Below are positions 34,622 through 50,612 of a stretch of DNA of 64,000 bases, piece after piece. Below the pieces are notes generated by a model. The model ran no database searches. It was not told where the DNA came from and worked only from the letters and a program-made list of their open reading frames with translations. This stretch comes from Streptomyces yatensis (GTDB lineage Bacteria; Actinomycetota; Actinomycetes; Streptomycetales; Streptomycetaceae): NCBI RefSeq assembly GCF_018069625.1, contig NZ_CP072941.1:1922001-1986000 (forward strand), in the 5' to 3' direction. The position numbers and the translations under genes are program-made. Position 1 is the first letter of the stretch. Each line of letters opens with the position of its first letter.

Positions 34622-34639
34622 CTGAGTTCAGTTCAATTC
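34622..34639. promoter_or_regulatory. Operator site S1 (NTF2/synthetase operon)
   Basis: On the minus strand: GAATTGAACTGAACTCAG. It contains the exact core CTGAACTCAG found in front of the TetR gene (S2) and the MHS transporter (S6). It lies about 75 bp upstream of the NTF2-like gene at 34549. Confidence 0.65.
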
Positions 34640-34698
34640 TGGGATGGATGCTAATCCCGGGGAAACACGACTGACAAGAGTCCGTAAGAACACGAAAC

Positions 34699-34726
34699 GG
34701 CCCCCGGCGGATATCCGCCGGGGGCC
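34699..34726. terminator. 28-bp perfect palindrome, terminator of the second TetR gene
   Basis: Arms GGCCCCCGGCGGAT and ATCCGCCGGGGGCC match completely (14 bp each, no loop), 27 bp past the regulator's stop. On the minus strand it is followed by GTTTCGTG. Confidence 0.8.
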
Positions 34727-34753
34727 GGAAGCGACAGGGGGCCGCTCAGGGGG

Positions 34754-35377
34754 TCAGGTGGCGACCATGCGTACGCAGGCGCCCTCGATCAGCTCGCTGA
34801 CCTCGGACAGCGGGGTGGGCCCCGAGGGCCGGTACCACCGCCAGACGCTGACGATCAGGCCGAGCACACCCGAGCCCAGCAGTTGCGCGTCCCGGAGCGG
34901 GAAGGCACCCATGGACATGCCCCGGACCAGCAGATTCGTCCAGTTCCGCTCGACGAGCTGGACCAGCTTGCGGGCCTCGACGCGCTCGGCCTCCTCCCGC
35001 TTGGACTTGCGCGTGCCGGAGAGCAGATCCATGTGGTTGTGCAGGATCCGCATCTGCAGGACCTCTTGGTCCGAGACGTCGTAGGCCGCGCGGACGGCCG
35101 CCCGGAGTGCCTCGGTCGGGTCCTCGACGCCCTCGGTCGCCTCCGTGAACTTGTCGTGGGACCGCTGGAGCTCCAGCCGCATGATGGTCAGCAGGCAGTG
35201 CGTCTTGGACTCGAAGTAGTGGTACAGCGCGGTCTGCCCGATGCCGACCCGCTCCGCCACGGTGGACCACTTGGTGGCCTCGAACCCCGTCTCGCCGAAG
35301 CAGTCGACGGCGGCCGCCAGGATGGCGGCGCGCTTGGACCTCGGTCCCGCTTCCGGTTCAACGATTCTCGTCGCCAT
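34754..35377 (-). CDS. TetR/AcrR family regulator, probable master of the CoA-catabolic island
   Basis: 207 aa. The helix-turn-helix is FGETGFEATKWSTVAERVGI followed by GQTALYHYFESKTHCLL (about 27-62), in the KstR2/FadR-like style. The C-terminal ligand domain has RILHNHMDLLSGTRKSKRE and a final WRWYRPSGPTPLSEV. Operator site S2 lies 52-66 bp before its start, and sites with the same core precede the flanking catabolic operons, so self-control plus control of the island is inferred. The ligand is probably a CoA ester from the pathway. It is encoded between the synthetase operon and the ten-gene beta-oxidation operon. Confidence 0.92.
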   Translation of the reverse strand: MATRIVEPEAGPRSKRAAILAAAVDCFGETGFEATKWSTVAERVGIGQTALYHYFESKTHCLLTIMRLELQRSHDKFTEATEGVEDPTEALRAAVRAAYDVSDQEVLQMRILHNHMDLLSGTRKSKREEAERVEARKLVQLVERNWTNLLVRGMSMGAFPLRDAQLLGSGVLGLIVSVWRWYRPSGPTPLSEVSELIEGACVRMVAT

Positions 35378-35428
35378 GCCTCGTCTCCTGGCTGCAGCCC
35401 ACCGTGTCCGTACCCGAGAGTAGCCCCA

Positions 35429-35443
35429 AGCTGAACTCAGTTG
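35429..35443. promoter_or_regulatory. Operator site S2 (TetR autoregulation)
   Basis: AGCTGAACTCAGTTG, core CTGAACTCAG at 35431-35440, about 52 bp upstream of the TetR start and in the gap after the thiolase stop. Half-sites CTGA/TCAG flank a 2-bp centre. Confidence 0.7.
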
Positions 35444-35467
35444 CCAATCGACGTGAACAGAGCCGGG

Positions 35468-36616
35468 TCAAAGGCGCTCCAGCACGGTCGCGTTCGCCAT
35501 GCCGCCGCCCTCGCACATCGTCTGCAGACCGTAGCGCCCACCGGTCCTGAGCAGTTGGTGGACGAGCGTCGTCATCAGCCGGGCGCCGGTGGCGCCGAGC
35601 GGATGTCCGAGCGCGATGGCGCCGCCGAAGGCGTTGACCCGCTCCGGGTCGGGGCCGATCTCCTTCTGCCAGGCGAGGACGACGGAGGCGAACGCCTCGT
35701 TGATCTCCACCAGGTCGATGTCGCCGATCGACAGCCCGGCCCGGTCCAGGACCTTCTCGGTGGCCGGGATCGGACCGGTCAGCATATGGATCGGATCGGA
35801 GCCGACGACGGCCATGGTGTGCACCCGCGCGAGCGGGGTCAGGCCGTGGCGGCGCACCGCCTCCTCGGAGGCGATCAGCAGGGCGGCGGCCCCGTCGGAG
35901 ATCTGGCTGGAGACGGCGGCGGTCAGCCGGCCGTCCTCGGTGAGGGTCTTCAGCCCGGCCATCTTCTCCAGGGTGGTGTCGGCGCGCGGGCCCTCGTCGG
36001 CGGTGAGCCCGAAGGCCGGGGTGATCTCGTCGTCGAAGGCGCCGTCGGCCTGGGCGGCGAGGGCTCGCCGGTGACTGGTGAGCGCGAATTCCTCCATGTC
36101 CGCCCGGGAGACGCCCCACTTCTCGGCGATCAGTTCGGCCCCGCGGAACTGGGAGACCTCCTGGTCGCCGAAGCGCTCGCGCCAGCCGTCCCCCGCGTAC
36201 GGGCTGCCCATACCGGCCTGTTCGCCGACGGTCATGGGACTGGCGATGGGCACCAGGCTCATCACCTCCACCCCGCCGGCCACCACCAGATCGGCGGCCC
36301 CGGAGCCGACCGCCTGGGCGGCGAAGTGCACGGCCTGCTGGGAGGAGCCGCACTGGCGGTCGATGGTGGTGCCGGGGACGTGCTGCGGCAGTCCGGCCGA
36401 CAGCCATGCGGTGCGTGCGACGTTGCCGGTCTGCGCGCCGATCTGGCTGACGCACCCGAAGTACACGTCGTCCACGGCGCCCGGGTCGGCTCCGGTGCGC
36501 TCCAGCAGGGCGCGCAGTGCGTGGGCGCCGAGATCGGCGGGGTGCACTCCGCTGAGCGCGCCCTTGCGGCGGCCGACGGGGGTGCGGACGGCTCCGACGA
36601 TGAATGCTTCCGACAC
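35468..36616 (-). CDS. Acetyl-CoA acyltransferase (thiolase, FadA type)
   Basis: 382 aa from a GTG at 36616. Nucleophilic Cys is in DRQCGSSQQAV (about 89), with NEAFASV, the GHPLGATGARL His block (about 343) and the second Cys in CEGGGMANAT (about 366), all catalytic elements of degradative thiolases. It cleaves a 3-ketoacyl-CoA with CoA to release acetyl- or propionyl-CoA. It is the last gene of a ten-gene minus-strand operon starting at 44844. Confidence 0.94.
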   Translation of the reverse strand: MSEAFIVGAVRTPVGRRKGALSGVHPADLGAHALRALLERTGADPGAVDDVYFGCVSQIGAQTGNVARTAWLSAGLPQHVPGTTIDRQCGSSQQAVHFAAQAVGSGAADLVVAGGVEVMSLVPIASPMTVGEQAGMGSPYAGDGWRERFGDQEVSQFRGAELIAEKWGVSRADMEEFALTSHRRALAAQADGAFDDEITPAFGLTADEGPRADTTLEKMAGLKTLTEDGRLTAAVSSQISDGAAALLIASEEAVRRHGLTPLARVHTMAVVGSDPIHMLTGPIPATEKVLDRAGLSIGDIDLVEINEAFASVVLAWQKEIGPDPERVNAFGGAIALGHPLGATGARLMTTLVHQLLRTGGRYGLQTMCEGGGMANATVLERL

Positions 36617-36645
36617 GGTGGGGCTCCAGGGGTTTCGGGGAGGTG

Positions 36646-37437
36646 TCAGGTGCTGGAGGCGGCGCGGGGGAAGTCGGGTACCCGCTTGCCCAGGAAGGCG
36701 GCGACGCCCTCGCGGCCCGCGGCGGAGGAGGCCGCGGCGGCGATCGCACGGGCCTCGCGGTCCAGGTGCGTGCCGAGGTCCGAGGTCAGCCCGGTGGCCA
36801 CGAGACGGCGGGTGGCGCCGAAGGCGGCGGTGGGTCCGCCGCACAGCGCCTCGGCCGTACGGATGGCCTCGGCGGCCAGCCGGTCGGGGGCGACGATCCG
36901 GCTCACCAGGCCGATGGCCTCGGCCTCCGCCGCCTTGACGCGACGGTTGGTCAGCAGCAGGTCCAGGGCCCGCTTGGGACCGATGAGCCGCGGCAGGAAC
37001 CAGCTCACTCCGGCATCCGGGGAGTAGCCGATCCCGGTGTAGGCGGTGGTGAACGAGGCGTTGTCGGCGGCGAGGGTCACATCGGCGGACGCGGCCAGGC
37101 CGATGCCCGCACCGGCGACGGCGCCCTGCACGGCGGCCACCACGGGCGCGTCGCCCGCCGCGAAGGTGCGCAGGGCCTCGTGGAGCGCGCCGGTCACCGC
37201 GATGAGGTGCTTCTCCAGCACCTCGCCGGAGAGCCGGGCGAACTCCCCGAGGTCGCCGCCGACGCAGAAGGACTTCCCCTCGCCGGTCAGCAGCACGGCC
37301 CGTACGGACTCGGCGGCGCACACTCGCGCCGCGTCCAGCAGTTCGCGTGCCATCTCCAGGTCGATGGCGTTGCCCGCCTCGCCACGGCGCAGGGTGACGC
37401 GGGCCAGGCCGTCGTCGATCTCGATGCCGACCCTCAT
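36646..37437 (-). CDS. Enoyl-CoA hydratase/isomerase family protein
   Basis: 263 aa; the ATG overlaps the SDR stop (ATGA). The crotonase oxyanion-hole segments are present: FCVGGDLGEFA and VQGAVAGAGIGLAASADVTL, followed by GIGYSPDAGVSWFLPRLIG and LLLTNRRVKAAEAEAIGLV. At the usual first catalytic Glu position the sequence is YTGIGYSPDAG, resembling isomerase/hydrolase members more than standard hydratases. It acts on a CoA ester in the same pathway; the exact reaction is open. The gene is 29 bp before the thiolase gene. Confidence 0.88.
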   Translation of the reverse strand: MRVGIEIDDGLARVTLRRGEAGNAIDLEMARELLDAARVCAAESVRAVLLTGEGKSFCVGGDLGEFARLSGEVLEKHLIAVTGALHEALRTFAAGDAPVVAAVQGAVAGAGIGLAASADVTLAADNASFTTAYTGIGYSPDAGVSWFLPRLIGPKRALDLLLTNRRVKAAEAEAIGLVSRIVAPDRLAAEAIRTAEALCGGPTAAFGATRRLVATGLTSDLGTHLDREARAIAAAASSAAGREGVAAFLGKRVPDFPRAASST

Positions 37438-38213
37438 CGCGCGGTCCACCCGCCGTCGACGGTCAGGATCTGCCCGGTGCAGTACGAGGAGGCGTCCGAG
37501 GCCAGGAACAGCAGGGCGCCGTCGAGTTCATGGGCGTCGCCGCCGCGCCGCAGCAGGGTGTTGCGCTCGACCCAGCGGCTGGAGCGCTCGTCGTCGAAGA
37601 GGTCCGCGGTCATCTCGGTGCGGAACCAGCCCGGGGCGAGCGCGTTGACGCGGGTCCCGCTTCCGCCCCACTGTCCGGCCAGCTCGCGGGTCAGCCCGAT
37701 CAGCCCGGCCTTGGACGCCGCGTAGCTCGCGCCGCCCAGGGGGGCGGCGGTGACCAGGCCGAGGATGGAGGAGACGTTGATGACGCTCCGGGGCGGCGCG
37801 CCGTCCCCTGCGGGTGGCTCGGCCACGAGGCGGGCCAGGTGGAAGGGGGCGGTGAGGTTGGTGCCGAGGACGTCGGCGAAGGCGTCCGGGGATTCGTCCT
37901 CGGCGCGGGTCTCGCCGGACGTGGCCGCGTTGTTGACCAGGATGTCGACGCGGCCGGTGGCGGTCCGCGCGGTCTCGATCAGCCGCGTACGGTCGGCGGC
38001 GAGCGAGACATCGCAGGCGACGGGGTGGATGCGCGCGTCGGAGCCGGCGAGTTCCTTCAGCCGGTCGATCCGCCGGGCGGCGGCGAACACGGTGGCGCCG
38101 GCCTGGGCGAGGACGGCGGCGAAGCGTGCGCCGAGCCCCGCGGACGCACCGGTGACCACGGCCGTCCTGCCCCGCAGCGAGAACAGCTCCGCGGCGGGTG
38201 GTGGCGCGCTCAT
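37434..38213 (-). CDS. SDR family oxidoreductase 1 of the ten-gene operon
   Basis: 259 aa. Classical SDR elements: TAVVTGASAGLGARFA (TGxxxGxG), NNAAT, catalytic Ser in INVSSILGLVT and YAASK (SYAASKAGLI). The C-terminal FLASDASSYCTGQILTVDGG is typical. It probably oxidises a hydroxyl of the CoA ester or a ring alcohol with NAD(P). It overlaps both neighbours by ATGA and is followed by a second SDR-derived gene upstream, so two distinct redox steps may be encoded. Confidence 0.92.
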   Translation of the reverse strand: MSAPPPAAELFSLRGRTAVVTGASAGLGARFAAVLAQAGATVFAAARRIDRLKELAGSDARIHPVACDVSLAADRTRLIETARTATGRVDILVNNAATSGETRAEDESPDAFADVLGTNLTAPFHLARLVAEPPAGDGAPPRSVINVSSILGLVTAAPLGGASYAASKAGLIGLTRELAGQWGGSGTRVNALAPGWFRTEMTADLFDDERSSRWVERNTLLRRGGDAHELDGALLFLASDASSYCTGQILTVDGGWTAR

Positions 38214-38986
38214 CCCTCCACCCCGATCGGCAGGGCGGTCGCGCCGCCGTCGAGCACCAGGGTCTGACCGGTCATCCAGGAGGAGGCGTCGGAGGCCAGG
38301 AACAGCGCCGCGTGGGCCACGTCCTCCACGGTGCCGAGGCGCCGCAGCGGCAGCTTGGCGGTGAGGATCGGCTCGCGGACCTCCCATACCGCCCGGGCCA
38401 GCTCGGTCTTGATCAGTCCGGGGGCGATGGCGTTGACGCGGGCGTGCGGCCCCAGTTCGTAGGCGAGCTGCCGGGTCATATGGAGCATGGCGGCCTTGGT
38501 GGCGTTGTAGTAGCCGATGTGCGGGTCGACGATGAGCCCGCCGACGGAGGCGATGTTGACCACCGCTCCCCCGTGTTCGGCCATCCAGGCCCGCCAGGCG
38601 CACCGGGTCCAGGCGATCATGCCGTACTGGTTGACGCGGACGGTCTTCTCCGCGCGCGGCAGGTCCAGGTCGAGCAGATCGCCGTGGTACGGGTTGGTGG
38701 CCGCGTTGTTGACGAGGAGGTCGAGGCGGCCAAAGCGGGCCATGGTCTCCTCGACGCACCGCTCGGCCTGCTCGGGTTCACCGGCGTTCGCCACCACCGT
38801 GTGCACATCGCCGTCGCCCTTGACGCGCAGCAACTCCTCGCGGGCCTCGGCGAGTCCGGCCGGTTTGCGGGCCGCGATCACCACATGTGCGCCGGCCGCC
38901 CGGTAGGCGGTGGCGATGCCGAGGCCGATGCCGCGGGATCCACCGGTGATGACGGCCACCTTGCCGTCGAGGCTGTTGGCGCTCAC
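38210..38986 (-). CDS. SDR family oxidoreductase 2 of the ten-gene operon
   Basis: 258 aa from a GTG that overlaps the acyl-CoA dehydrogenase stop (GTGA). Motifs: VAVITGGSRGIGLGIATAY, LVNNAATNPYHGDLLDLDL, INIAS-type VVNIASVGGLIV, the catalytic YYNATKAAMLHM and FLASDASSWMTGQTLVLDGG. The NPYHGDLLDLD insert after NNAAT is a feature of the DHRS4/2-type and some fatty-acyl SDRs. Probable 3-hydroxyacyl or alcohol dehydrogenase; the substrate is not identified. Confidence 0.92.
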   Translation of the reverse strand: MSANSLDGKVAVITGGSRGIGLGIATAYRAAGAHVVIAARKPAGLAEAREELLRVKGDGDVHTVVANAGEPEQAERCVEETMARFGRLDLLVNNAATNPYHGDLLDLDLPRAEKTVRVNQYGMIAWTRCAWRAWMAEHGGAVVNIASVGGLIVDPHIGYYNATKAAMLHMTRQLAYELGPHARVNAIAPGLIKTELARAVWEVREPILTAKLPLRRLGTVEDVAHAALFLASDASSWMTGQTLVLDGGATALPIGVEG

Positions 38987-40215
38987 GCCGCCCCCGTCTC
39001 CGTGTCGGTCTTCTTCTTGTACGGCGCGAGTTCCTGGCGGGCCACCGTCCGCAGATGGACTTCGTCGGGACCGTCGGCGATCCGCAGCGCCCGGGTGATG
39101 GCGTACAGCCGGGCCAGTACGGTGTCGTCGCTGACCCCCGCCGCGCCGTGCGCCTGCACCGCCCGGTCGACCACCTTGTGGGCGACCTCCAGCGCCGCGA
39201 CCTTGATGGCGGCGACCTCCATACGGGCGGCTGCGTTGCCGACCGTGTCCATCAGCCAGGCCGACTTGAGGACGAGGAGGCGCAGCTGCTCGATCTCGAT
39301 GCGGCTGCGGGCGATCCACTCCCGGACCACTCCCTGGTCGGCGAGCGGCCCGCCGAAGGCGGTGCGTTCGGTGACGCGCTCGCACATCAGCCGCAGGGCG
39401 CGCTCGGCGAAACCCACGGCGCGCATCGCGTAGTGCATCCGGCCGGGGCCGAGCCGTCCCTGGGCGAGCGCGAAGCCCTCGCCCTCCCCTCCGAGGATGT
39501 TCTCGGCCGGGACGCGGACGTTCTCGAAGAGCACATCGCCGTGTCCGAGCCGGTCGGTGTAGCCGAACATCGGCAGGTCGCGCAGGACGGTGACACCCGG
39601 GGTGTCGCGGGGGACGAGCAGCATGGACTGCTGCCGGTAGGTGGGCGCGTCCGGGTCGGTCTTGCCCATCAGGATGATCAGCTTGCAGTCGGGGTCGAGG
39701 ATCCCGGAGGTGTACCACTTGCGGCCGTTGACGACATAGCTGTCGCCGTCGCGGGTGATGCGGGTGCGGATGTTTCGGGCGTCGGAGCTCGCCACCTCCG
39801 GCTCGGTCATGGCGAAGCAGGAGCGGATCCGCGCGTCGAGCAGCGGTCGTAGCCAGCGTTCCTGCTGTTCGGGGGTGGCGTAGAGGGCGAGCAGCTCCAT
39901 GTTGCCGGTGTCGGGCGCCGAGCAGTTGAACACTTCGGGGCCGATGATGGAGCGGCCCGCCAGCTCCATGAGCGGCGCGTATTCGAGGTTGGTGAGCCCC
40001 GCGCCCCAGTCGCCGTGGGCCATGAAGAGGTTCCACAGGCCCTCGGCGCGGGCCTTCTCCTTCAGCTCGGCCATCACCGGCGGCAGGGCGTGCGGGTCAT
40101 CGCCTTCGGCCAGCTGCCGGTCGTACGTCGCCTCCGCGGGGAAGACGTGTTCGTCCATGAACGACCGCATGCGGTCCTGGAGTTCACTCGCCCGTGGCGA
40201 GTATCCGAAATCCAC
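38983..40215 (-). CDS. Acyl-CoA dehydrogenase (ACAD10/11-like)
   Basis: 410 aa from a GTG with AGGAG upstream. Flavin and substrate signatures: SCFAMTEPEVASSDARNIRT, GRKWYTSGILDPDCKLIILM, HGDVLFENVRVPAENILGGE, and the C-terminal LYAITRALRIADGPDEVHLR. The DGPDEVH motif and its closeness to an APH-fold gene are hallmarks of the ACAD10/11 group, which acts on 4-hydroxy or unusual acyl-CoAs. It needs ETF as electron acceptor. It is 37 bp after the APH gene. Confidence 0.93.
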   Translation of the reverse strand: MDFGYSPRASELQDRMRSFMDEHVFPAEATYDRQLAEGDDPHALPPVMAELKEKARAEGLWNLFMAHGDWGAGLTNLEYAPLMELAGRSIIGPEVFNCSAPDTGNMELLALYATPEQQERWLRPLLDARIRSCFAMTEPEVASSDARNIRTRITRDGDSYVVNGRKWYTSGILDPDCKLIILMGKTDPDAPTYRQQSMLLVPRDTPGVTVLRDLPMFGYTDRLGHGDVLFENVRVPAENILGGEGEGFALAQGRLGPGRMHYAMRAVGFAERALRLMCERVTERTAFGGPLADQGVVREWIARSRIEIEQLRLLVLKSAWLMDTVGNAAARMEVAAIKVAALEVAHKVVDRAVQAHGAAGVSDDTVLARLYAITRALRIADGPDEVHLRTVARQELAPYKKKTDTETGAA

Positions 40216-40252
40216 GATTGCTCCTGTTCGGTGGGGGCGTACCGGTGCCGGA

Positions 40253-41227
40253 TCAGCCGAGGATGTCGCGGGCGGTGCGGATCATCGCGGCGATGGTGGG
40301 CGGCAGGCGTTCCTGGTCCGGGTCGTGGTGCTTGCCCTCGCGGTGCCTGCGGAGGTTATGGCCCATGATCGCGGCCATCTTCATGCGGCCGAGTGCCCGG
40401 AACCAGTCCATCGCGGGCAGCGCGGGCCGCCCGTCGCGGTAGGTGTCCAGCAGTTCGGCCTCGCCGGGCAGTCCGGGCACGGCGTGTCCCAGTTGGGGGA
40501 AGTTGCGGTGGTCGGCGAAGAGCAGGAACCAGCCCAGGTCGATGCGCGGGTCGCCCACGCTCCAGATCTCCCAGTCGACGACGGCCACCGCCCGCTCGCC
40601 CACGCACAGCACATTGCCGAGCCGGAAGTCCCCGTGCAGCAGCACCGGGGGGAGGCCGCTCGGTACGCCGTCGGCCAGCCGCGCCACCAACTCCTCGCCG
40701 CCGGGCCGTAGTTCGGCGGGCACGGCACGAAGGGTGCGGCTCCACCGCTCCAGCTCGCCCGCGGCGTCCAGCGGTGCGGGCGCGTCGAGCCCGGGCGTGT
40801 GCACATCGGTGCCGTGCAGTCGGCGCAGGACGGAGGCGATCTCCAGCATCCGGGCGCGGGCCGTCGCGGGGTCCATCTCGTGGTCGTCCAGTACCGGCTC
40901 GACGGCCTCCCCGGCCGCGAAGTCCATGGCGAACCAGGCCGGTTGGGTCTCGTCGACGGCCACCACGCCCGGCACCGGCACCGTGGATCCGGCCAGCGCG
41001 CCGAGGACCCGCGCCTGGCGCAGGACGTCGTTGCGCCCGACGGGCCGCCGGCCCGGGGGCACCGCCTTGACGACGTACCGGGCGTCCCCGGCCGCGACCT
41101 CGTAGGTCAGCCCCGAGTGCCCGCCCGGCAGCACCGTCAACTCGCCGACCGGCGCTCCCGGGTGGTGGCGGGCGAGCCGGTCGCGGACCCGCGCGGCCAG
41201 CTCCGGCACCTCGGTGGCCATGCTCAT
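40253..41227 (-). CDS. APH-fold (kinase-like) protein of the acyl-CoA dehydrogenase locus
   Basis: 324 aa; the ATG overlaps the upstream stop (ATGA). Kinase-like motifs: TVLPGGHSGLTYEVA, Lys in YVVKAVPPG, LLHGDFRLGNVLC (about 194-206, catalytic Asp) and AVVDWEIWSVGDPRID (metal Asp). This aminoglycoside-phosphotransferase fold is fused to acyl-CoA dehydrogenase in ACAD10/11, where it phosphorylates 4-hydroxyacyl-CoA to help remove the hydroxyl. A stand-alone version next to ACAD genes is the bacterial counterpart. Antibiotic resistance is unlikely given the context. Confidence 0.88.
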   Translation of the reverse strand: MSMATEVPELAARVRDRLARHHPGAPVGELTVLPGGHSGLTYEVAAGDARYVVKAVPPGRRPVGRNDVLRQARVLGALAGSTVPVPGVVAVDETQPAWFAMDFAAGEAVEPVLDDHEMDPATARARMLEIASVLRRLHGTDVHTPGLDAPAPLDAAGELERWSRTLRAVPAELRPGGEELVARLADGVPSGLPPVLLHGDFRLGNVLCVGERAVAVVDWEIWSVGDPRIDLGWFLLFADHRNFPQLGHAVPGLPGEAELLDTYRDGRPALPAMDWFRALGRMKMAAIMGHNLRRHREGKHHDPDQERLPPTIAAMIRTARDILG

Positions 41228-42426
41228 CGGACGGGCTCCTTGGGCAGGCCGAGTACGCGCTCGGCGAGGATGGTGCGCTGGATCTCGTCGGTGCCGCCCG
41301 CGATGCTGTAGCCGGGGGCGCCCAGCAGGTGTTCCGTCCAGGCGTAGGTGCCCCACTCCCCCGTGTCCGCCACGAGGCTCGGCCCCAGCAGCTCGGACAC
41401 CAGGTCGCCGGTGCGCCGCATGGTCTCGGTGGCGTACAGCTTGCCGACCGACGCCTCCGCGCCCGGTTCGCGCCCGGCGACGAGGGCGGCGGTCACCCGC
41501 AGCCCCATCAGTCGCTGGACGAGGGTGCGGAGGTGGAGGTCGGCGGCCCGCTGCCGTTCGCTGCCGGTGAGCGGGCGCGACAGGTTTCCGGCCAGGTCCA
41601 GCGCCCGGTCGGCGTTGTCCAGGCCGAGGCTGCCGGAGTCGAGCCGTTCGGCGGCCAGCACGCTGAGCGTGACCCGCCACCCCTCGCCGACCGGCCCGAG
41701 CCGGTCGGTGTCGGGCACCCGCACCCCGTCCAGGTAGACCTCGTTGAAGCTGGTGCCACCGGTCATCTGCCGGATGGGCCGTACGGTGACGCCCGGCGCG
41801 TCCATGCGCACCAGGAAGACGGTGATGCCGGCGTGCTTGCGGACGTCCGGATCGGTGCGGCACACCGCCACGCCCCAGGTCGCCACGCGGGCCCCGGAGG
41901 TCCACACCTTGTGTCCGGTCAGCACCCAGCCCTCGCCCTCGCGCACCGCCCGGGTGCGCACCGCGGCGAGGTCGGAGCCCGCCTCGGTCTCCGAGAACAG
42001 CTGGCAGGCCAGTTCGTCGGTGCGCAGCATGGGCACGAGCCAGCGCCGCTTCTGCTCCTCGGTGCCCCACAGCCCGATCGCGGGGGCGACGAGCGCTTGG
42101 GTCACGGGGAAGATCTCGGGGCGGTGGGGTACGTCGAAGGCCGCCTCCTCGCCGCGGTAGAGCTGCTCGTAGTAGGCGGGCAGACTTCGTCCGCCGTACT
42201 CCTGCGGCCAGTTGAGCGCGGACCAGCCCTGGTCGTAGCGGGTGCGTTCCCACTCCTGGACGCGGGCGGTGTGCTCGCGCTCCTGCTCCTCGGTCCAGTT
42301 CTCGAACACGGCGACGGAGTCGGAGCCGCTGCCCCACTCCCCGCCCGTGGCGCGGGGCCGGGCCACACCGGCGAGCCACGTTTGGGCCTCGGCGCGGAAC
42401 TCATCGGGTTCCGGGATACCGCTCAT
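41224..42426 (-). CDS. Acyl-CoA dehydrogenase (FadE type)
   Basis: 400 aa from the ATG at 42426, which has GGAGG five bases upstream; an in-frame GTG at 42438 overlaps that site and is unlikely. Motifs: LFSETEAGSDLAAVRTRAV, GHKVWTSGARVATWGVAVCR, IRQMTGGTSFNEVYLDGVRV and the C-terminal GYSIAGGTDEIQRTILAERV. An N-terminal acidic/tryptophan-rich segment (NWPQEYGGRSLPAYYEQL) is typical of longer actinobacterial FadE forms. It introduces an alpha,beta double bond in an acyl-CoA. A 98-bp gap separates it from the thiolase gene upstream. Confidence 0.94.
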   Translation of the reverse strand: MSGIPEPDEFRAEAQTWLAGVARPRATGGEWGSGSDSVAVFENWTEEQEREHTARVQEWERTRYDQGWSALNWPQEYGGRSLPAYYEQLYRGEEAAFDVPHRPEIFPVTQALVAPAIGLWGTEEQKRRWLVPMLRTDELACQLFSETEAGSDLAAVRTRAVREGEGWVLTGHKVWTSGARVATWGVAVCRTDPDVRKHAGITVFLVRMDAPGVTVRPIRQMTGGTSFNEVYLDGVRVPDTDRLGPVGEGWRVTLSVLAAERLDSGSLGLDNADRALDLAGNLSRPLTGSERQRAADLHLRTLVQRLMGLRVTAALVAGREPGAEASVGKLYATETMRRTGDLVSELLGPSLVADTGEWGTYAWTEHLLGAPGYSIAGGTDEIQRTILAERVLGLPKEPVR

Positions 42427-42524
42427 CTCTTCCTCCACCTCCGATCGGGGGGCCGTTCAGCCGCACATTCCGCGGGCCATGGCGCGGGACGTTCGGCGGG
42501 ACGCGGCGGGATTCGGCGGGACAC

Positions 42525-43670
42525 TCAACGGGACAGGACCGTGCAGGCGCTCACGCCGGGGGCGCCGTACACATGGGTGAAGCCGATCCTGGGGCGGTCC
42601 GGGACCTGGCGATCGCCGGCCCGGCCGCGCAGCTGCTGGACGACCTCGTAGACCTGGCGCAGCCCCGAGGCGCCGATGGGTTCGCCGTTGGCGATGCAGC
42701 CGCCGTCGGTGTTGACCGGCAGCGTCCCGTCGATCCCGGTGGCGCCGGAGGCGATCAGCCGCTCCTGCTCGCCGTCCTCGCAGAATCCGCACTCGGCCAT
42801 GTGCATGACCTCGGCACCGCTCTCGGTGTCCTGCAGCTGACACACGTCGACATCGCCGGGACCGAGCCCCGCCTCCTCGAAGGCGGCGGCCGAGGCGTCA
42901 CGGCTGACGCTGGTCAGTGTGCCCCCGGGAATCGATGGGCTGAACACCTCGAACGACCCGAAGCGCCGGGTGCGTACGGCCGCCGAGCGCAGGGTGACCG
43001 GTGTGCCGTCCATCGCGCGGGCGGCCTCGGGCGAGCAGAGGACCAGCGCCGCCGCGCCCGCTCCCGGGGAGCAGAACATGAAGCGGGTCAGCGGATCGCT
43101 GACCATGCCGGATGCCAGGACCTCGTCGGCGGACACCGGTTCACGACGCCATGCCTCGGAGGTCAGACCGCCGTTGCGGTACGCCTTCTCGGCGACCAGG
43201 GCGAGGGTCCGCGGGGTGATGCCGTGGTCGTGCATATAGCGCTGGATCTTCATACCGAAGAACTGGGTGGTCACCATCAGCCCGTCGCTGCCGTACTCCG
43301 CGCCCAGGCCCCAGTCCTCGGGCCTGGGGTCGAAGGCGCCGCGCGGGTGTTTGTCGAAGCCGACGGCGAGGACGACATCCGCCATGCCGGAGCGGATCGC
43401 GTTCACGGCGGAGACCAGCGCGCTGCCACCGGTGGCGCAGCCGTTCTTGACATTGACGAACGGCAGCCCGGTCAGGCCGAGTTGGGCCACCAGGGTGTCC
43501 GCGAGACCCGCGCTGTCGCTGCCGCCGAACGCGGCCCGCACCCGCGACCACGGGATCCCGGCGTCCGCCAGCGCGGCGTTGACGGCGGCGACGGCCAGCT
43601 GTCGGCCGGTCGCCTCCGACCGGCCGAACGGGGTGCGCCCCGCGCCGCAGATCAGCACATCGGTGCTCAC
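42525..43670 (-). CDS. Thiolase-like protein of the SCP-x/lipid-transfer group
   Basis: 381 aa from a GTG overlapping the DUF35 stop (GTGA). Typical SCP-x/ltp thiolase pattern: ICGAGRTPFGR, FGGSDSAGLADTLVAQLGLT, VKNGCATGGSALVSAVNAIR (Cys nucleophile), GADGLMVTT-type segments, SPGAGAAALVLCSP and NTDGGCIANGEPIGASGLRQ. These proteins pair with DUF35 OB-fold partners, as here, and act as thiolases or retro-aldolases on branched or cyclic substrates, e.g. in steroid side-chain removal. The adjacent DUF35 gene supports a two-component enzyme. Confidence 0.9.
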   Translation of the reverse strand: MSTDVLICGAGRTPFGRSEATGRQLAVAAVNAALADAGIPWSRVRAAFGGSDSAGLADTLVAQLGLTGLPFVNVKNGCATGGSALVSAVNAIRSGMADVVLAVGFDKHPRGAFDPRPEDWGLGAEYGSDGLMVTTQFFGMKIQRYMHDHGITPRTLALVAEKAYRNGGLTSEAWRREPVSADEVLASGMVSDPLTRFMFCSPGAGAAALVLCSPEAARAMDGTPVTLRSAAVRTRRFGSFEVFSPSIPGGTLTSVSRDASAAAFEEAGLGPGDVDVCQLQDTESGAEVMHMAECGFCEDGEQERLIASGATGIDGTLPVNTDGGCIANGEPIGASGLRQVYEVVQQLRGRAGDRQVPDRPRIGFTHVYGAPGVSACTVLSR

Positions 43671-44050
43671 GAGCCCTCCTCGCTCAGGGGTGTGGGCCTG
43701 GCCCGGGGCACTCCGGGACCGGCGGTCACGGAGAGCGGCATGCCGATGCGGACGGCGTCGAGGTCCTCGACATCGAGGACGGCGGCCACCCGCACACCCT
43801 CCGCCAGCTCGACATAGCCGAGCGCGAACGGTGTGAAGCCTCCGGGCGGGGCCTGGTAGGGCGGCGACTTGGGGGCGTACCGCTGCACCGTCCAGGTCCA
43901 CAGCGTGCCCGTGCCCTGGAGGGCCGCCGGATCGGCCGGCCCTCCGCAGCGCGGGCACGTGTCGTCCGCGGGGTACACCGTCACCGAGCAGCCGGAGCAG
44001 CGTGCGCCCTGGAGCCCGCCGGCGGCGGGGCTCCGCGGATCCGTGGTCAT
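43667..44050 (-). CDS. Zn-ribbon/OB-fold protein (DUF35), partner of the thiolase-like protein
   Basis: 127 aa from the ATG at 44050 (MTTDPRSPAAGGLQGARC). The N-terminal zinc ribbon has paired CxxC motifs (CSGC and CPRC); the OB-fold follows (GTLWTWTVQRYAP, FALGYVELAEGVRVAAVLD). DUF35 proteins bind acyl-CoA and hold it in a channel for a partner thiolase or aldolase. The four-base overlap with the thiolase-like gene makes the pairing near certain. The gene begins five bases after the hydratase stop. Confidence 0.88.
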   Translation of the reverse strand: MTTDPRSPAAGGLQGARCSGCSVTVYPADDTCPRCGGPADPAALQGTGTLWTWTVQRYAPKSPPYQAPPGGFTPFALGYVELAEGVRVAAVLDVEDLDAVRIGMPLSVTAGPGVPRARPTPLSEEGS

Positions 44051-44055
44051 CCGGA

Positions 44056-44844
44056 TCAGCGCCCCTGCCACTTGGGTTCGCGCTTCTCCAGGAACGCCGA
44101 CACGCCCTCGTTCGCGTCCTCCGAGTTGAGCGCCACGCCCACGGCGAGGTGCTCCATCACCATCAGCGACTGGGTGTCGGCGTCCAGGCTGCGGTCGATC
44201 GTCATCTTCGTGAGCCACATGGTGAAGGGGCTCTTGTCGGCGAGGTGGCTGATGAACTCCTCGACCGTCGCGTCCAGCTCGTCGGCCGGGGCCGACTTGT
44301 TGATCAGGCCGAACTCGGCGGCCTCGACGCCGGAGAGGAGCTTGCCGGTGAGCATCAGCTCCTTGGTCTTGCGGATGCCGATCATGCGCGGCACCCGGTA
44401 GATCGGACCGGCCCCGCCGAACAGCGCGCGGCGGATGTGGAAGTCGCCGATCTTCGCGTCGTCGGCGGAGATGGCGAAGTCGCAGGAGATCATGATCTCG
44501 AAGCCGCCTGCGGTGACATGGCCCTCCAGGACCGCGACCGAGGGGGTCTTCATCGAGTACAGGCGGTCGCACACCTTCGCGGACTTCACCGCGACGTCGA
44601 TCGCGTTCGACTTGCCGACGTACTCGGCCTTCAGGCTGTCGAGGTCGAACCCCGAGCAGAACGTGCCGCCACGGCCGCGCACCACCAGGACCCGGAGCTC
44701 GGGGTCCTCGTCCACCTCGGTGATGATCTCGTCGAGCCGGTCCAGGATCGGCACGGTGACGCAGTTCTTCTTCCACGGACGGTTGAGCCACACACGGGCG
44801 ACGTGGCCGTCGCGCTCGAACTGGATCTCTTCTTCCGTTGTCAT
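44056..44844 (-). CDS. Enoyl-CoA hydratase/isomerase family protein, first gene of the ten-gene operon
   Basis: 262 aa. Crotonase signatures: FCSGFDLDSLKAEYVGKSNA and VLEGHVTAGGFEIMISCDFA (oxyanion hole), then HIRRALFGGAGPIYRVPRMI, where the usual catalytic Glu positions are Ala/Gly, so it may be an isomerase, hydrolase or lyase. It starts with MTTEEEIQFERDGHVARVW. Operator site S3 lies 16-33 bp before its start. Its operon continues without large gaps to the thiolase ending at 35468. Confidence 0.9.
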   Translation of the reverse strand: MTTEEEIQFERDGHVARVWLNRPWKKNCVTVPILDRLDEIITEVDEDPELRVLVVRGRGGTFCSGFDLDSLKAEYVGKSNAIDVAVKSAKVCDRLYSMKTPSVAVLEGHVTAGGFEIMISCDFAISADDAKIGDFHIRRALFGGAGPIYRVPRMIGIRKTKELMLTGKLLSGVEAAEFGLINKSAPADELDATVEEFISHLADKSPFTMWLTKMTIDRSLDADTQSLMVMEHLAVGVALNSEDANEGVSAFLEKREPKWQGR

Positions 44845-44859
44845 CCCTCACCCCTCTGA

Positions 44860-44877
44860 AACTGAACTGAATTCACT
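44860..44877. promoter_or_regulatory. Operator site S3 (ten-gene operon)
   Basis: AACTGAACTGAATTCACT, containing ACTGAACT and an overlapping TGAATTCA palindrome. It sits immediately upstream of the leading hydratase gene, on the likely promoter or leader. Confidence 0.6.
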
Positions 44878-44938
44878 ACAACTTTGATTCCAGAGCCGCA
44901 CGGTGTCAAGCCCTTGATCGAGACACACCTACTCGGGT

Positions 44939-46123
44939 TCAGGCAGCGGGGCGGGTGGCGAGGCCGACGAGCCCGGCGAGCCGGGTCCGGTGCTGGTCCG
45001 CCGTCCCGAACAGCACCTCGGCGCCGCGCGCCCGGCGGACATACAGATGCGCCGGGTGCTCCCAGGTGAAGCCGATCCCGCCGTGCAGCTGGACGTACTC
45101 GGCCGTGGCCAGGCGGAAGGTCTCGGAGCAGACCACGGCGGCGGCACAGGCGGCCACCGGGAGCTGCGGTGAGGCGATGGCGGCACAGGCGGTCGCGTAC
45201 GCGGACCCCGAGCGCGCCGCCTCCAGCGCCACCAGCACATCGGCCAGCCGGTGCTTGACGGCCTGGAAGGATCCGATGGGGCGCCCGAACTGGTGGCGCT
45301 GCGCCACGAAGGCGACCGTGGCGTCCAGCGCGTGCCCACTGCCGCCGACCTGCTCGGCCGCCAGCGCGGCCCGCCCGGTGTCCAGCGTGGCCGAAACCGC
45401 TCCCTCGGCCTCCTCCGCCGTGCCCACGGCAGTGGCCGGGGCACCCATGAATTCCACGAGCGCCTGGCGCCGCGTCTCGTCCAGGACGCGGCGCGGAGTG
45501 CGCCGGCAGGTGCCGGGGGCGGGCTCACAGGCGAAGAGCCGAGGTCCGGCGGGTGTCCCGGCCCGCGCCAGGAGCAGATCCGCACCGGCCCCGTCGAGCA
45601 CGAAGTCCGCCCGGCCGCGCAGCACCCAGCCGCCGCTCCCCCGTTCCGCGGTGATGGCGAGTTCACGGGACTCATCGGGCCCGCCGACGCCATCGGGGCG
45701 GTCATCGGGGCCGAACCCGGCCACGGTGGCGGTGAGCGTGCCGTCGGCGATCCGGGGCAGATAGCGCTCACACGCCGTACGGTCGCCACTGAACAGCAGG
45801 GCTTGTGCGGCCAGGACCACCGTGGACAGCAGCGGCGCGCAGTACAGGGCGCGCCCGGATTCCTCCAGGGCCACGGCCAGTTCGGCGAAGGTGAAGCCCG
45901 ACCCGCCGTACTCCTCCGGAATGGCCAGGCCGTGGACGCCGATCTCGCCCGCGAGCCGCGCCCAGAGCGCTTCGTCGTATCCGCGCGGGGTGGCCAGATG
46001 CTTGCGCACGTCCTCGACGCCACTCGCCTCGGCGTAGAGGTCCCGCAAGACGGTGCGCAGTTGTCGCTGTTCATCGGTTGCGGACAGCAGCTGGGGGTCG
46101 ATCTCGGGGTGGCGACGGTGCAT
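44939..46123 (-). CDS. Acyl-CoA dehydrogenase (FadE, second-subunit type)
   Basis: 394 aa. It has N-terminal LAIPEEYGGSGFTFAELAVA, LEESGRALYCAPLLSTVVLA and a C-terminal YVQLHGGIGFTWEHPAHLYV motif characteristic of actinobacterial FadE proteins that pair as heterodimers (alpha2beta2) in steroid degradation. The classical SETEAGSD flavin loop is weak, as expected for the non-catalytic or divergent partner. It is expressed alone behind operator S4 and so could pair with a FadE from a neighbouring operon (inference). Confidence 0.9.
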   Translation of the reverse strand: MHRRHPEIDPQLLSATDEQRQLRTVLRDLYAEASGVEDVRKHLATPRGYDEALWARLAGEIGVHGLAIPEEYGGSGFTFAELAVALEESGRALYCAPLLSTVVLAAQALLFSGDRTACERYLPRIADGTLTATVAGFGPDDRPDGVGGPDESRELAITAERGSGGWVLRGRADFVLDGAGADLLLARAGTPAGPRLFACEPAPGTCRRTPRRVLDETRRQALVEFMGAPATAVGTAEEAEGAVSATLDTGRAALAAEQVGGSGHALDATVAFVAQRHQFGRPIGSFQAVKHRLADVLVALEAARSGSAYATACAAIASPQLPVAACAAAVVCSETFRLATAEYVQLHGGIGFTWEHPAHLYVRRARGAEVLFGTADQHRTRLAGLVGLATRPAA

Positions 46124-46163: not shown

Positions 46164-46179
46164 GAATTGAACTCAATTC
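46164..46179. promoter_or_regulatory. Operator site S4 (solo acyl-CoA dehydrogenase)
   Basis: GAATTGAACTCAATTC: perfect 7-bp arms (GAATTGA/TCAATTC) around AC. It lies 41 bp upstream of the acyl-CoA dehydrogenase start and is the most symmetrical member of the set. Confidence 0.7.
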
Positions 46180-46226: not shown

Positions 46227-46285
46227 GGATCGGGGCGGGCGGGATCGGGGCGGGCGGGATCGGGGCGGGCCGGATGGGGGCGGGC
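46227..46285. repeat. Four tandem copies of a 15-bp G-rich unit
   Basis: Units of GGATCGGGGCGGGCG (three near-exact, the fourth GGATGGGGGCGGGC) between the acyl-CoA dehydrogenase promoter and the SDR stop. Every unit has GGGG and GGG runs, so a G-quadruplex or a transcript-terminating structure is possible. Confidence 0.85.
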
Positions 46286-46295
46286 CCGGATCCGC

Positions 46296-47114: not shown

Positions 47115-47146
47115 GCCGATCCCCTTCCGTTGCTCCGACCATCTAT

Positions 47147-47159
47147 TGAACCGACTTCA
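47147..47159. promoter_or_regulatory. Weak operator-like site S5 between SDR and zinc ADH genes
   Basis: TGAACCGACTTCA: TGAA and TTCA half-sites with a five-base centre. It resembles the other sites only in its half-sites, so it is the least certain of the set. Confidence 0.3.
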
Positions 47160-47209
47160 CCTCTGTTACCGTGGCAGCCGCAGCGCTGACAAGACCCGGG
47201 ACGGTGACG

Positions 47210-48250
47210 ATGAGGGCACTGCGACTGACGGCCTGGGGCGAGGCTCCGGCATCGGCAGAGGTGGAGCGGCCCGTCCCCCACGGCACCGAGGTGCTGGTGC
47301 GGGTCGAAGCCGCCGGTCTGTGCCGCTCCGACCTGCATGTCATCGACGGCGCTCCGGGCGCACTCCCCTACCGGCTGCCGTTCACCCTCGGCCACGAGGT
47401 CGCCGGGCAGGTCACGGCCCTGGGGCCCGCCGCCGACGGGGTGAGCGCGGGTGACCGCGTGGTGCTCTACGGGCCGTGGGGCTGCGGCTCCTGCGCACGG
47501 TGCGCCGCGGGCGCCGACAACTACTGCGACCGGCGGAACACCCTCGCCTGGCACGGGGCGGGCCTGGGCCGGGACGGCGGAATGGCCGAGTACGTGCTCG
47601 TCCCGTCCGCCGGCCAGCTGGTGCCGATCGGCGACCTGCCGGCCGACCAGGCGGCCCCGCTCTCCGACGCGGGCCTGACGTCCTACCACGCCGTGGCCGG
47701 GCTCCGGCACGCACTCGGCGAGGACACCACCGCCGTCGTCATCGGCGTCGGCGGGCTCGGCCACCTGGCCGTCCAGGCCCTCCGCGCGACCACCGCGAGC
47801 CGTGTGCTGGCGGTGGATGTGCGGGAGGACGCCCTGGCTCTCGCGGACCGCTCCGGCGCGGACTTCAGCACCCTGATGCGACCGGACACCGCCCGCGTCC
47901 TGAGGGCGCGCAGCGGAGGCGTGGGGGCGGACGCCGTATTCGACTTCGTCGGCGCCCCACAGACGCTGGAACTCGCGACCGGCGTCCTGCGCTCCGGCGG
48001 CGAACTCGCCGTCGTGGGAAGCGGAGGCGGCAGCCTGACGGTCTCGAAGCCGGGCGTCCTGCCGGCCGGTTTCCGGCTTTCACTGCCCTTCTGGGGAACG
48101 CGCCACGAACTGGCCGCGGTCGTCGCGCTGGCGCGTTCGGGGGCACTGCACGTCGAGACGGAGCGCTTCCCGCTGTCCGCCGCCGCGGAGGCGATCGACC
48201 GGCTTCGCGGGGGCCGGGTGCGGGGCCGGACCGTGCTCGTGCCGGACTGA
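47210..48250 (+). CDS. Zinc-dependent alcohol dehydrogenase (MDR family)
   Basis: 346 aa from the ATG at 47210; an in-frame GTG at 47171 is an alternative. Catalytic zinc ligands: Cys in GLCRSDLHVIDG (about 38) and His in LGHEVAGQVTALG (about 62). The structural-zinc lobe has four Cys (CGSCARCAAGADNYC, about 92-106). The cofactor loop is VVIGVGGLGHLAVQALRA. It probably oxidises a primary or secondary alcohol intermediate with NAD. It is divergent from an SDR and followed by another SDR on the same strand. Confidence 0.92.
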   Translation: MRALRLTAWGEAPASAEVERPVPHGTEVLVRVEAAGLCRSDLHVIDGAPGALPYRLPFTLGHEVAGQVTALGPAADGVSAGDRVVLYGPWGCGSCARCAAGADNYCDRRNTLAWHGAGLGRDGGMAEYVLVPSAGQLVPIGDLPADQAAPLSDAGLTSYHAVAGLRHALGEDTTAVVIGVGGLGHLAVQALRATTASRVLAVDVREDALALADRSGADFSTLMRPDTARVLRARSGGVGADAVFDFVGAPQTLELATGVLRSGGELAVVGSGGGSLTVSKPGVLPAGFRLSLPFWGTRHELAAVVALARSGALHVETERFPLSAAAEAIDRLRGGRVRGRTVLVPD

Positions 48251-48402
48251 GCACCTTCGCGGTGGACTGATGGCTCCGGCTCATGGACGCGGGGCTCAGG
48301 CACGCGCGGGGCTCAGCGACGCGCGGGCGCACTGGCGCGCGGACGCACTGGCGCGTGGACGCACGAATGCGGCAACTCACCGACGCGGAAGGGAAGTTCA
48401 GC

Positions 48403-49143
48403 ATGCGCTTCGACGGAAAGGTGGCGATCGTCACCGGCGGCGCCCGGGGTATGGGTGCCACGCATGTACGGGGGCTGGTCGCGGAGGGCGCCCGGGTCGC
48501 CGTCTGTGACGTCCTGGACGACGAGGGGGAGGCCCTGGCCGGGGAACTCCCCGACACGCGGTACTGCCACCTCGACGTCACCGACGAAGCGCAGTGGCAG
48601 TCCGTCGTCCGTACGGTCGAGCACACCCTGGGCCCCGTGGACGTCCTGGTCAACAACGCGGGGATCATGCTCTACGGCGGTGTGGAGCAGCAGTCGCCCG
48701 ACCACTTCCGCCGGATCGTCGACGTCAATCTGGTGGGCGCGTTCCTCGGGATGCACACCGTCCTCCCCGGCATGCGCGACCGCGGCCGTGGAGTCGTCGT
48801 CAACGTCTCATCGGCCGCCGGCATGACGGGTTTCGCCGGTGGCATCGGCTATGTGGCGAGCAAGTGGGGGGTGCGTGGGATGACCAAGGCCGCCGCACTG
48901 GACATGGCGGGCAGCGGGGTGCGGGTGAACTCCGTCCACCCGGGTGTCATCCGTACGCCCATGGGTGAGACCGCCTCACCCGCGCTCTTCGCCCATCAGC
49001 CGGTGCGGCGCATCGGGGAGCCCGAGGAGGTCACCCGCATGGTGCTCTTCCTGGCGAGCGACGACGCCTCGTACACGACGGGCGGGGAGTTCCTCATCGA
49101 CGGCGGCCAGACCATCGGCCACGGCGGCCACTCCGCGGATTAG
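48403..49143 (+). CDS. SDR family oxidoreductase (3-alpha/20-beta-hydroxysteroid dehydrogenase-like)
   Basis: 246 aa from an ATG with GGAAGGGAAG upstream; an in-frame ATG further up (48367) lies in a repetitive leader. Motifs: VAIVTGGARGMGATHVRGLV, VNNAGIMLYGGVEQQSPDHF, NVSSAAGMTGFAGGIGYVAS (YVASK catalytic) and HPGVIRTPMGE. The pattern GARGMGATH and HPGVIRTPM is that of bacterial 3-alpha(20-beta)-hydroxysteroid dehydrogenases. Substrate specificity is not proven. Its stop region is duplicated (see findings). Confidence 0.9.
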   Translation: MRFDGKVAIVTGGARGMGATHVRGLVAEGARVAVCDVLDDEGEALAGELPDTRYCHLDVTDEAQWQSVVRTVEHTLGPVDVLVNNAGIMLYGGVEQQSPDHFRRIVDVNLVGAFLGMHTVLPGMRDRGRGVVVNVSSAAGMTGFAGGIGYVASKWGVRGMTKAAALDMAGSGVRVNSVHPGVIRTPMGETASPALFAHQPVRRIGEPEEVTRMVLFLASDDASYTTGGEFLIDGGQTIGHGGHSAD

Positions 49144-49219
49144 AACCACTCCGCGGATGAGAGCGCCGCCGAGCCCGCGGCCGTGCGTGGCGCCTGCCGC
49201 CGCCACGGCCGAACCCCCG

Positions 49220-50539
49220 CTACACATCCTTGCGGACGGTGAGCAGGGAACCGATGCCGATCAGACAGACCAGCATGACGAAGAACGCCGGGGAGAGCAG
49301 GTTCCCGGTCCGGTCGACCAGGAAGGCCGCGATGTACGGAGCCGTGCCGCCCGCGAGGACCGTGCCGACGTTGTACCCGATCGCCATACCGGTGTAGCGG
49401 ACCCGGCGTTCGAACAGATGCGGCCACAGACTCGCCGCCGGGACCTGCACGAACGCACTGCTCAGCATCAGGAGCAGATACGCCAGACCGGCCAGCGCCA
49501 GGCTGTCCTGGCCCATCAGCAGCATCGCGGGGTAGGCGGTCACCAGGAAGCCCAGCAGCCCGCCCATCAGGACGCGACGGCAGCCGAACCGGGCGGCGAG
49601 CCGGCCGGCCGGCACCATCAGCAGCACGGTGACGAGCACGACACCCGCGGACAGCCAGTACACCAGCGTGGTGTCGTATCCCAGGTTGCTGGTCATGTAG
49701 ATGCCGATGTACGTCAGCCCGAGGAAGATGGCGCCGCCCTGCGCCATGGCCAGGCCGATGGACTGCAGCAGCGCCGTACGGTGGGTGGCCAGAACCTCTC
49801 GGATCGGTGCCGCGGGGATGTCGGCGCGTTCTGCGGCCTTCTTGAATTCCGGGGTGTCCTCGATCCGCAGCCGGGCCCACAGACAGAGGAGGGTGAGCGG
49901 CACGGCCATCAGGAAGGGCAGCCGCCAGCCCCAGTCGCCCATCTGTTCCTTGGTGGTGAGGGCGGAGATCGCCCCGGCCGTGGCGGCCGCGAACATGAAC
50001 CCGAGATTGGAGCCGATGGGCGTGACGGAGCCGAGGAAGGCTCTGCGTCCGGGTGGCGCCGACTCGTAGATATAGGTGTAGGCGCCGACCGACTCGCCGC
50101 CCGAGGAGATGCCCTGTGCCAGCCGGGTGATGAAGAGAAGAATCGCGGCGAACACACCGATCTGGCTGTAGGTCGGCAGCAGTCCGGTGAGGCTGCTGGC
50201 CACCCCCATGCACAGCACCGAGGAGACCAGCGCCTTGCGGCGCCCCCAGCGGTCGCCGATCCATCCGAAGAAGACACCGCCGATCGGCCGCACCACGAGG
50301 CCCGTGGCGAACACCGCGAGCGCCGCCAGCGTCGAGGCCGCCGGATCGTCGCCCGGGAAGAACTGCGGGGCGATGGCCACGGCGAGATAGCCGTAGACAC
50401 TGAAATCGAAGTACTCGATCAGGGTGCCGATGCTCCCGGCGAGCATCGCGCGGCGCACCGTACGGGGATCGTACGACGCCGACTCCTCGGGCGGCGCGGG
50501 CTCCTCCCCCGGCGGCGCGGGCTGCTGTGTGGTGCTCAT
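49220..50539 (-). CDS. MFS transporter of the metabolite:H+ symporter (MHS) type
   Basis: 439 aa, about 12 membrane helices. The MHS signatures are present: LIEYFDFSVYGYLAVAIAPQ, FGWIGDRWGRRKALVSSVLC (loop 2-3), RLAQGISSGGESVGAYTYIY, and a loop with RIEDTPEFKKAAERADIPAA. MHS carriers import organic acids such as shikimate, proline/betaine or aromatic acids with protons. Preceded by operator S6, it is the probable uptake system for the acid degraded by this island. The N-terminal 25 residues are Pro/Glu-rich. Confidence 0.92.
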   Translation of the reverse strand: MSTTQQPAPPGEEPAPPEESASYDPRTVRRAMLAGSIGTLIEYFDFSVYGYLAVAIAPQFFPGDDPAASTLAALAVFATGLVVRPIGGVFFGWIGDRWGRRKALVSSVLCMGVASSLTGLLPTYSQIGVFAAILLFITRLAQGISSGGESVGAYTYIYESAPPGRRAFLGSVTPIGSNLGFMFAAATAGAISALTTKEQMGDWGWRLPFLMAVPLTLLCLWARLRIEDTPEFKKAAERADIPAAPIREVLATHRTALLQSIGLAMAQGGAIFLGLTYIGIYMTSNLGYDTTLVYWLSAGVVLVTVLLMVPAGRLAARFGCRRVLMGGLLGFLVTAYPAMLLMGQDSLALAGLAYLLLMLSSAFVQVPAASLWPHLFERRVRYTGMAIGYNVGTVLAGGTAPYIAAFLVDRTGNLLSPAFFVMLVCLIGIGSLLTVRKDV

Positions 50540-50600
50540 GATCCGGCTCCCTTCCCCGCGGCACGGTCCGGTACCCTGCCGACGCCCGGGACGCTACAGA

Positions 50601-50612
50601 ACTGAACTCAGT
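50601..50612. promoter_or_regulatory. Operator site S6 (MHS transporter)
   Basis: ACTGAACTCAGT: perfect 5-bp arms around AC, sharing the core CTGAACTCAG with S1 and S2. It lies about 62 bp upstream of the transporter start. Confidence 0.7.

Follow-up and report, generated by a model that had tools for sequence, protein, structure and literature searches.

The 64,000-nucleotide stretch of the Streptomyces yatensis genome analysed here (contig NZ_CP072941.1, positions 1,922,001 to 1,986,000; hereafter the window) carries a recurrent palindrome, AAYTGAnnTCARTT, in front of operons for acyl-CoA catabolism and of tetR (34754-35377, minus strand), which encodes a TetR-family regulator of 207 amino acids. 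It is highly likely that these sites are the operators of this TetR, which would regulate a dispersed acyl-CoA catabolic pathway together with its own gene, and the palindrome is very probably a switch for the pathway as a whole. The sites, their position at the heads of operons, their conservation and their co-occurrence with the TetR in many actinobacteria are features of the sequences; binding, repression and ligand are predictions. Such an autoregulated TetR catabolic regulon is a known kind of system. The operator sequence, the regulator and the gene set are here assigned to an actinobacterial pathway for which we found no study, and the open-licence literature yielded no description of the operator or of the regulator.

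Five strong sites and one weak one occur in the window, all in intergenic DNA (distances are measured from the starts of open reading frames). Two of the strong sites are compound. Operator 1 (34620-34638, minus strand, AATTGAACTGAACTCAGGT; its 14-mer, 34620-34633 on the minus strand, is AACTGAACTCAGGT) heads the NTF2a-NTF2b-ligase-MBL operon, with the start of NTF2a 70 bp downstream. Operator 3 (44860-44878, plus strand, AACTGAACTGAATTCACTA) lies 15 bp upstream of ech1, the first gene of a ten-gene operon, and consists of one register at 44860-44873 (AACTGAACTGAATT) and a second at 44865-44878. The simple palindromes, both read on the minus strand, are operator 2 (35429-35442, AGCTGAACTCAGTT), 51 bp upstream of tetR, and operator 4 (46165-46178, AATTGAACTCAATT), which precedes the acyl-CoA dehydrogenase gene acadX by 41 bp and is unique in the genome in matching AAYTGAnnTCARTT perfectly. 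Operator 5 (50600-50613, minus strand, AACTGAACTCAGTA) is found 60 bp upstream of the gene for an MHS-type transporter, between it and the divergent acad3. The weak site (47149-47162, AACCGACTTCACCT, three mismatches) occupies the gap between SDR3 (minus strand) and ADH (plus strand). An earlier note, made from the window alone, had listed five strong sites and a weak form at 47147-47159, all in short upstream gaps and none inside a gene, and the six stretches read as it described, all of them between genes.

The TetR at 34754-35377 is very probably the owner of the operators, with binding predicted, because operator and TetR co-occur across genomes. The protein is rare: searches at E up to 1e-30 found it in 3 of the 150 genomes examined for the family, 6 of the 296 for the class and 30 of the 392 for the genus, and its closest named relatives are from Streptomyces. 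When operator and TetR were searched separately in one draw of 392 genus genomes, all 30 TetR-positive genomes were in the operator list, and the exact compound operator AAYTGAACTGAAYTCA was present in 27 of these 30 genomes versus 1 of the 362 TetR-negative ones (Fisher value 3e-37, which overstates independence since the genomes are related). Moreover, 37 of the 40 exact compound places lie within 30 kb of tetR, as do 75 of the 131 places of all kinds. Among the 150 family genomes, the three exact matches to AACTGAACTCAGKT are all in TetR-positive genomes; allowing one mismatch raises the count to 36 distinct places, of which the 3 TetR-positive genomes have 7 and the remaining 147 genomes 29. 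The candidate owner put forward in the earlier note is thereby supported genome-wide. Two exact compound operators stand away from tetR in TetR-positive genomes (G524:C6:229612 and G620:C28:30204) and are possible additional members of the regulon. A compound site with one mismatch, AACTCAACTGAACTCA, is shared by five genomes (G089:C23:437012, G566:C1:830698, G672:C1:9855471, G645:C1:9599027 and G654:C11:177827), of which G645 and G654 lack the TetR.

Orthologues of ltp, a thiolase-like gene of the ten-gene operon (86-100% identity), are confined to the same 3 of 150 family genomes as the TetR. Its paralogues (54-59%) are spread over 8 genomes at 11 places, including two places in the TetR-positive genome G089, and the 14-mer is absent at up to one mismatch from these 11 loci of 20 kb (L117-L127), with two matches at two mismatches. 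The loci form a group of related ltp operons, most of which include OB and acad genes, and no TetR orthologue is linked to them; they represent acyl-CoA pathways that run in parallel within this taxonomic family.

The independent tests of the palindrome come from these genomes and from the loci of TetR relatives. Of the 143 relatives returned by a scan of the genome_contigs collection with an alignment of 20 TetR sequences, the best 80 were taken further (56-100% identity, 17 genera; the loci are thus selected by TetR); together with three further loci (L001-L003, L001 being the window's own) they form a set of 83. At up to two mismatches, the palindrome has 415 matches in the 83 loci versus 3-63 for eight permuted palindromes of the same composition. 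With genes mapped by tblastn and sites sought at up to two mismatches within 200 bp upstream (controls are means of 12 permutations), a site precedes ech1 in 62 of 63 loci (permuted mean 0.58), NTF2a in 45 of 63 (0) and tetR in 49 of 80 (0.08). Genes internal to the ten-gene operon are almost devoid of upstream sites (OB 0/66, ltp 0/73, acad1 0/72, APH 0/72, acad2 1/75, SDR1 0/64, SDR2 0/76, ech2 0/54, thiolase 1/35), and so are the ligase (0/72) and MBL (0/66) genes of the NTF2/ligase operon. This is the TetR-regulon layout that the earlier note had proposed, and the sites gather at operon heads; an equal frequency within coding regions or at a distance from acyl-CoA genes, which the same note had named as grounds for abandoning the idea, is not what the counts show. 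Perfect palindromes before acadX also occur in L092, L094, L096 and L098. Four other loci have a better version of the weak site between SDR3 and ADH, namely AGATGAAGTCAGTT in G003 (L129), AACTGACTTCACCT in G089 (L132) and perfect palindromes in L084 and L087, and the region in front of the MHS gene in G003 (L129) carries TACTGAGTTCAGTT. Over 17 TetR-bearing genomes drawn from the 80 loci, the perfect palindrome is found at 26 places versus 3 for the pattern read backward.

In the S. yatensis genome itself (10.36 Mb, one contig), AACTGAACTCAGTT is found three times at up to one mismatch, always inside the 16-kb region of the sites, and at ten distinct places at up to two mismatches, five of them inside. 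A scan with AAYTGAnnTCARTT gave nine places at up to one mismatch, of which the five within the region are the five strong sites, versus three places for the backward-read pattern (Poisson value for clustering 7.5e-14, computed from the four outside places). There is some circularity in these counts, since the sites themselves supplied the pattern. The outside places are 749388, inside a polyketide synthase reading frame, 8346596, which is intergenic, 43628 and 7275094. At 8346596-8346614 (G000:C1; L101 3097-3115) the sequence is AACTGAAGTGAGTTCACTT, the reverse complement of which contains the palindrome AAGTGAACTCACTT, and it stands about 160 bp upstream of a reading frame of the old-yellow-enzyme type; it is possibly a distal target of the 34754-35377 TetR or of another TetR.

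Several findings weigh against the assignment of the operators to this TetR. Besides the derivation of the pattern from the window's own sites, the tetR operator is absent (at up to two mismatches, within 200 bp) from 31 of 80 loci, 16 of them Streptomyces loci with TetRs of 71-74% identity, so that autoregulation is not universal. NTF2a has no upstream site in 18 of 63 loci, and NTF2b, an internal gene, has one in 2 of 63. The sites before acadX (5/32, permuted mean 0.17), ADH (4/11), MHS (2/8) and SDR3 (1/9; permuted means 0 for these three) are seldom conserved, and the 3.6-kb loci (L113, L115) of the distant relatives in G302 and G352 (57-59%) contain no site. At up to one mismatch, AAYTGAACTGAAYTCA is present in all 30 TetR-positive genomes of the genus but also in 27 of the 362 TetR-negative ones, one of which (G009) has it exactly, and a 16-mer with one mismatch (G089:C23:437012) adjoins a paralogous ltp operon, inside L127.

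The owner of the operator could instead be some other regulator encoded elsewhere, either a further TetR or a protein of a different family, with mere co-occurrence linking operator and cluster. The loci in which tetR is without its own site and the TetR-negative genomes with a near match would fit such an owner, and binding by the TetR is itself a prediction. However, in 12 of these 27 genomes the only match is AACTGAACTGAACTGA, the (AACTG)n repeat, and all but one of the 362 TetR-negative genomes lack an exact site. The other TetR gene seen beside the cluster, tetR2 (29841-30677), was found by tblastn in just 2 of 80 loci and is thus an unlikely owner. In addition, operator and TetR stay linked in Pseudonocardia, Nocardia and Dietzia despite remodelled gene order, in loci that were selected by TetR. 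We thus give another owner only a small chance. A regulon of KstR2 (or KstR) for steroid-ring catabolism, with a diverged motif, appears less probable still. In mycobacteria and rhodococci, KstR2 (Rv3557c) is a TetR repressor that controls its own gene and has palindromic operators ahead of acyl-CoA operons at scattered positions, and it is a near relative of the window's TetR in sequence and fold, the two sharing with PfmR an RWYRP-like stretch. Its operator consensus, AAGCAAGnnCTTGCTT, has no match in the window at up to three mismatches, in line with the earlier remark that the motif differs from the KstR and KstR2 sites. The TetR scores 40.7 bits against the NCBIfam KstR equivalog NF033703 (cut-off 280) and has 22% identity to KstR2 in the structural alignment, with different recognition-helix residues; the operon content is also different, and the operon's thiolase reaches 407 bits against the steroid thiolase model (cut-off 515). 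A third explanation would make the repeats promoter elements of the usual kind, or AT-rich stretches that arose by chance in GC-rich DNA, and the bare 10-mer is indeed not enriched by count in the window (three matches at up to one mismatch, all exact, versus 1.94 expected in shuffles). This explanation is nevertheless hardly credible in view of the permuted palindromes, which fall far short of the real one both over the 83 loci and before ech1, of the 11 related operon loci from which the palindrome is absent at up to one mismatch, and of the co-occurrence in the genus genomes.

If the operators are those of the 34754-35377 TetR, as we favour, a dimer would occupy AAYTGAnnTCARTT sites that adjoin or overlap the promoters of the ligase/NTF2/MBL operon, the ten-gene operon, the acyl-CoA dehydrogenase, the SDR/ADH pair, the MHS uptake gene and tetR itself, and would keep the pathway off until a CoA ester, formed by the ligase that belongs to the pathway, bound the C-terminal domain and released it. 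Operator 2 would provide autoregulation. The form of the operators may add to this scheme. In operators 1 and 3, two 14-bp palindromic registers stand 5 bp apart, and this double register recurs in 61 of 62 ech1 operators and 26 of 45 NTF2a operators versus none of 49 tetR operators. A slightly looser pattern (up to two mismatches, within 300 bp) finds the 16-bp compound form before ech1 in 66 of 67 loci, before NTF2a in 45 of 63 and before tetR in 17 of 80. By these counts the two main catabolic operators are compound and the tetR operator mostly is not. As 5 bp is about half a helical turn, two dimers would likely sit on opposite faces of the compound operators, which we infer to be held tighter than the simple tetR operator.

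The TetR has the expected architecture of its family, with a helix-turn-helix domain at the N-terminus (PF00440, 50 bits, gathering cut-off 24), a predicted helical ligand domain at the C-terminus (PF17932, 52.8 bits, cut-off 26.4) and putative palindromic operators near its own and its target promoters. Its AlphaFold2 model is all-helical (mean pLDDT 89), and the recognition helix is nearly invariant in the 83 TetRs, partly by construction as it served as search pattern. The top fold matches of the model, tied, are 3him, KstR2 and PfmR of Thermus thermophilus (3vpr), which is from a different phylum; the fold neighbours also include regulators that bind acyl-CoA, by their entry titles AibR with isovaleryl-CoA and FadR with stearoyl-CoA. 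DarR of Rhodococcus and Mycobacterium (8sva, 8svd, DNA-bound), another neighbour, has other ligands, c-di-AMP and cAMP according to the entry titles, and one entry is titled as dimer-of-dimers DNA binding; here the 5-bp double register is seen from sequence alone. According to PMC6262395, QsdR of Rhodococcus erythropolis likewise belongs to the TetR regulators, and the operon under its control encodes a lactonase and a fatty acyl-CoA ligase. The likeness is one of description; the qsd operon, whose palindromes are named IR1 and IR2, differs in having two genes, qsdA and qsdC.

The genes of the NTF2/ligase and ten-gene operons, acadX and the MHS gene are all on the minus strand. The NTF2/ligase operon (30776-34549) comprises NTF2a (34181-34549; 25 bits against SnoaL_2, under the 27-bit cut-off), NTF2b (33807-34184; no Pfam match), an AMP-binding CoA ligase (31834-33339) and an MBL-fold hydrolase (30776-31837). 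The ten-gene operon (35468-44844) runs through ech1 (44056-44844), OB/ChsH2-C (43667-44050), the thiolase-like ltp (42525-43670), acad1 (41224-42438), an APH kinase (40253-41227), the ACAD11-like acad2 (38983-40215), SDR1 (38210-38986), SDR2 (37434-38213), ech2 (36646-37449) and a thiolase (35468-36616). The product of acadX (44939-46123) has IpdE2 and pimD_small as top NCBIfam matches, both under cut-off, and the MHS-type metabolite/H+ symporter (49220-50539) scores 356 bits against TIGR00883 (cut-off 443). A putative sigma-70-like promoter (TTGTCA-18-TAGCAT, 34648-34677, minus strand; a consensus match only, one found versus 0.0 expected in shuffles) ends 9 bp upstream of compound operator 1, which would thus cover the transcription start; promoter prediction called none at ech1 and acadX. 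A terminator-like hairpin of 13 G-C pairs (34698-34727, minus strand; one found versus 0.3 expected), 3' of tetR, separates it from the NTF2/ligase operon.

In the ten-gene operon, an APH-type kinase and an ACAD11-like dehydrogenase are found together, which suggests a route via a 4-hydroxyacyl-CoA intermediate. In PMC12440821, ACAD10/11 are described as phosphorylating 4-hydroxyacyl-CoA on the way to 2-enoyl-CoA and are likened to bacterial LvaA/LvaC of the levulinate pathway, and the dehydrogenase site of ACAD11 is given as R626, H634 and R637 (phosphate-binding) and D753 (catalytic), a numbering one higher than that printed for the ACAD11 chain. Acad2 matches the ACAD11 dehydrogenase domain at E 2.6e-130 and the APH protein its kinase domain at E 5.1e-15. 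The kinase, close to the dehydrogenase as in the ACAD10/11 and LvaA/LvaC systems, has its catalytic Asp, with the motif HGD(F/Y)RL(G/A)N in 74 of 75 APH hits above 50% identity (83 loci). Acad2 keeps R626, R637 and D753 and has Tyr for H634, a position occupied by Tyr in 67, His in 3 and an unread residue in 1 of 71 acad2 hits above 50% identity. The window differs from these systems in that Tyr and in having separate genes in a larger operon; no TetR control of either system is described in the passages of PMC12440821 consulted. Taken together with the CoA ligase, the MBL-fold hydrolase, the SDRs, the hydratases, the thiolase and the thiolase-like/OB pair, the kinase and dehydrogenase give about an even chance of a 4-hydroxy acid or lactone route, our preferred reading. 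A further and only tentative speculation is that a full actinobacterial equivalent of the mammalian ACAD10/11 route, with ligase, kinase, dephosphorylating dehydrogenase, thiolase-like/OB pair and uptake, is under the control of the TetR, which would sense a 4-hydroxy- or 4-phosphoacyl-CoA produced by that route and repress the two main operons through a graded operator. The catabolic promoters would then take two dimers offset by half a turn, and the promoter of tetR a single one. Should the 4-hydroxyacyl-CoA reading be right, the TetR and its operator would lend themselves to sensing 4-hydroxy acids or gamma-lactones, and the ACAD10/11 chemistry, described only recently, would have a bacterial model in the operon.

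A second kinase/ACAD11-like pair lies at 50890-53162 on the plus strand, with the divergent acad3 (50890-52143; 38% identity to acad2), which carries the His missing from acad2; an APH-like stretch at 52236-53162, with 33% identity to the operon's APH, comes after it.

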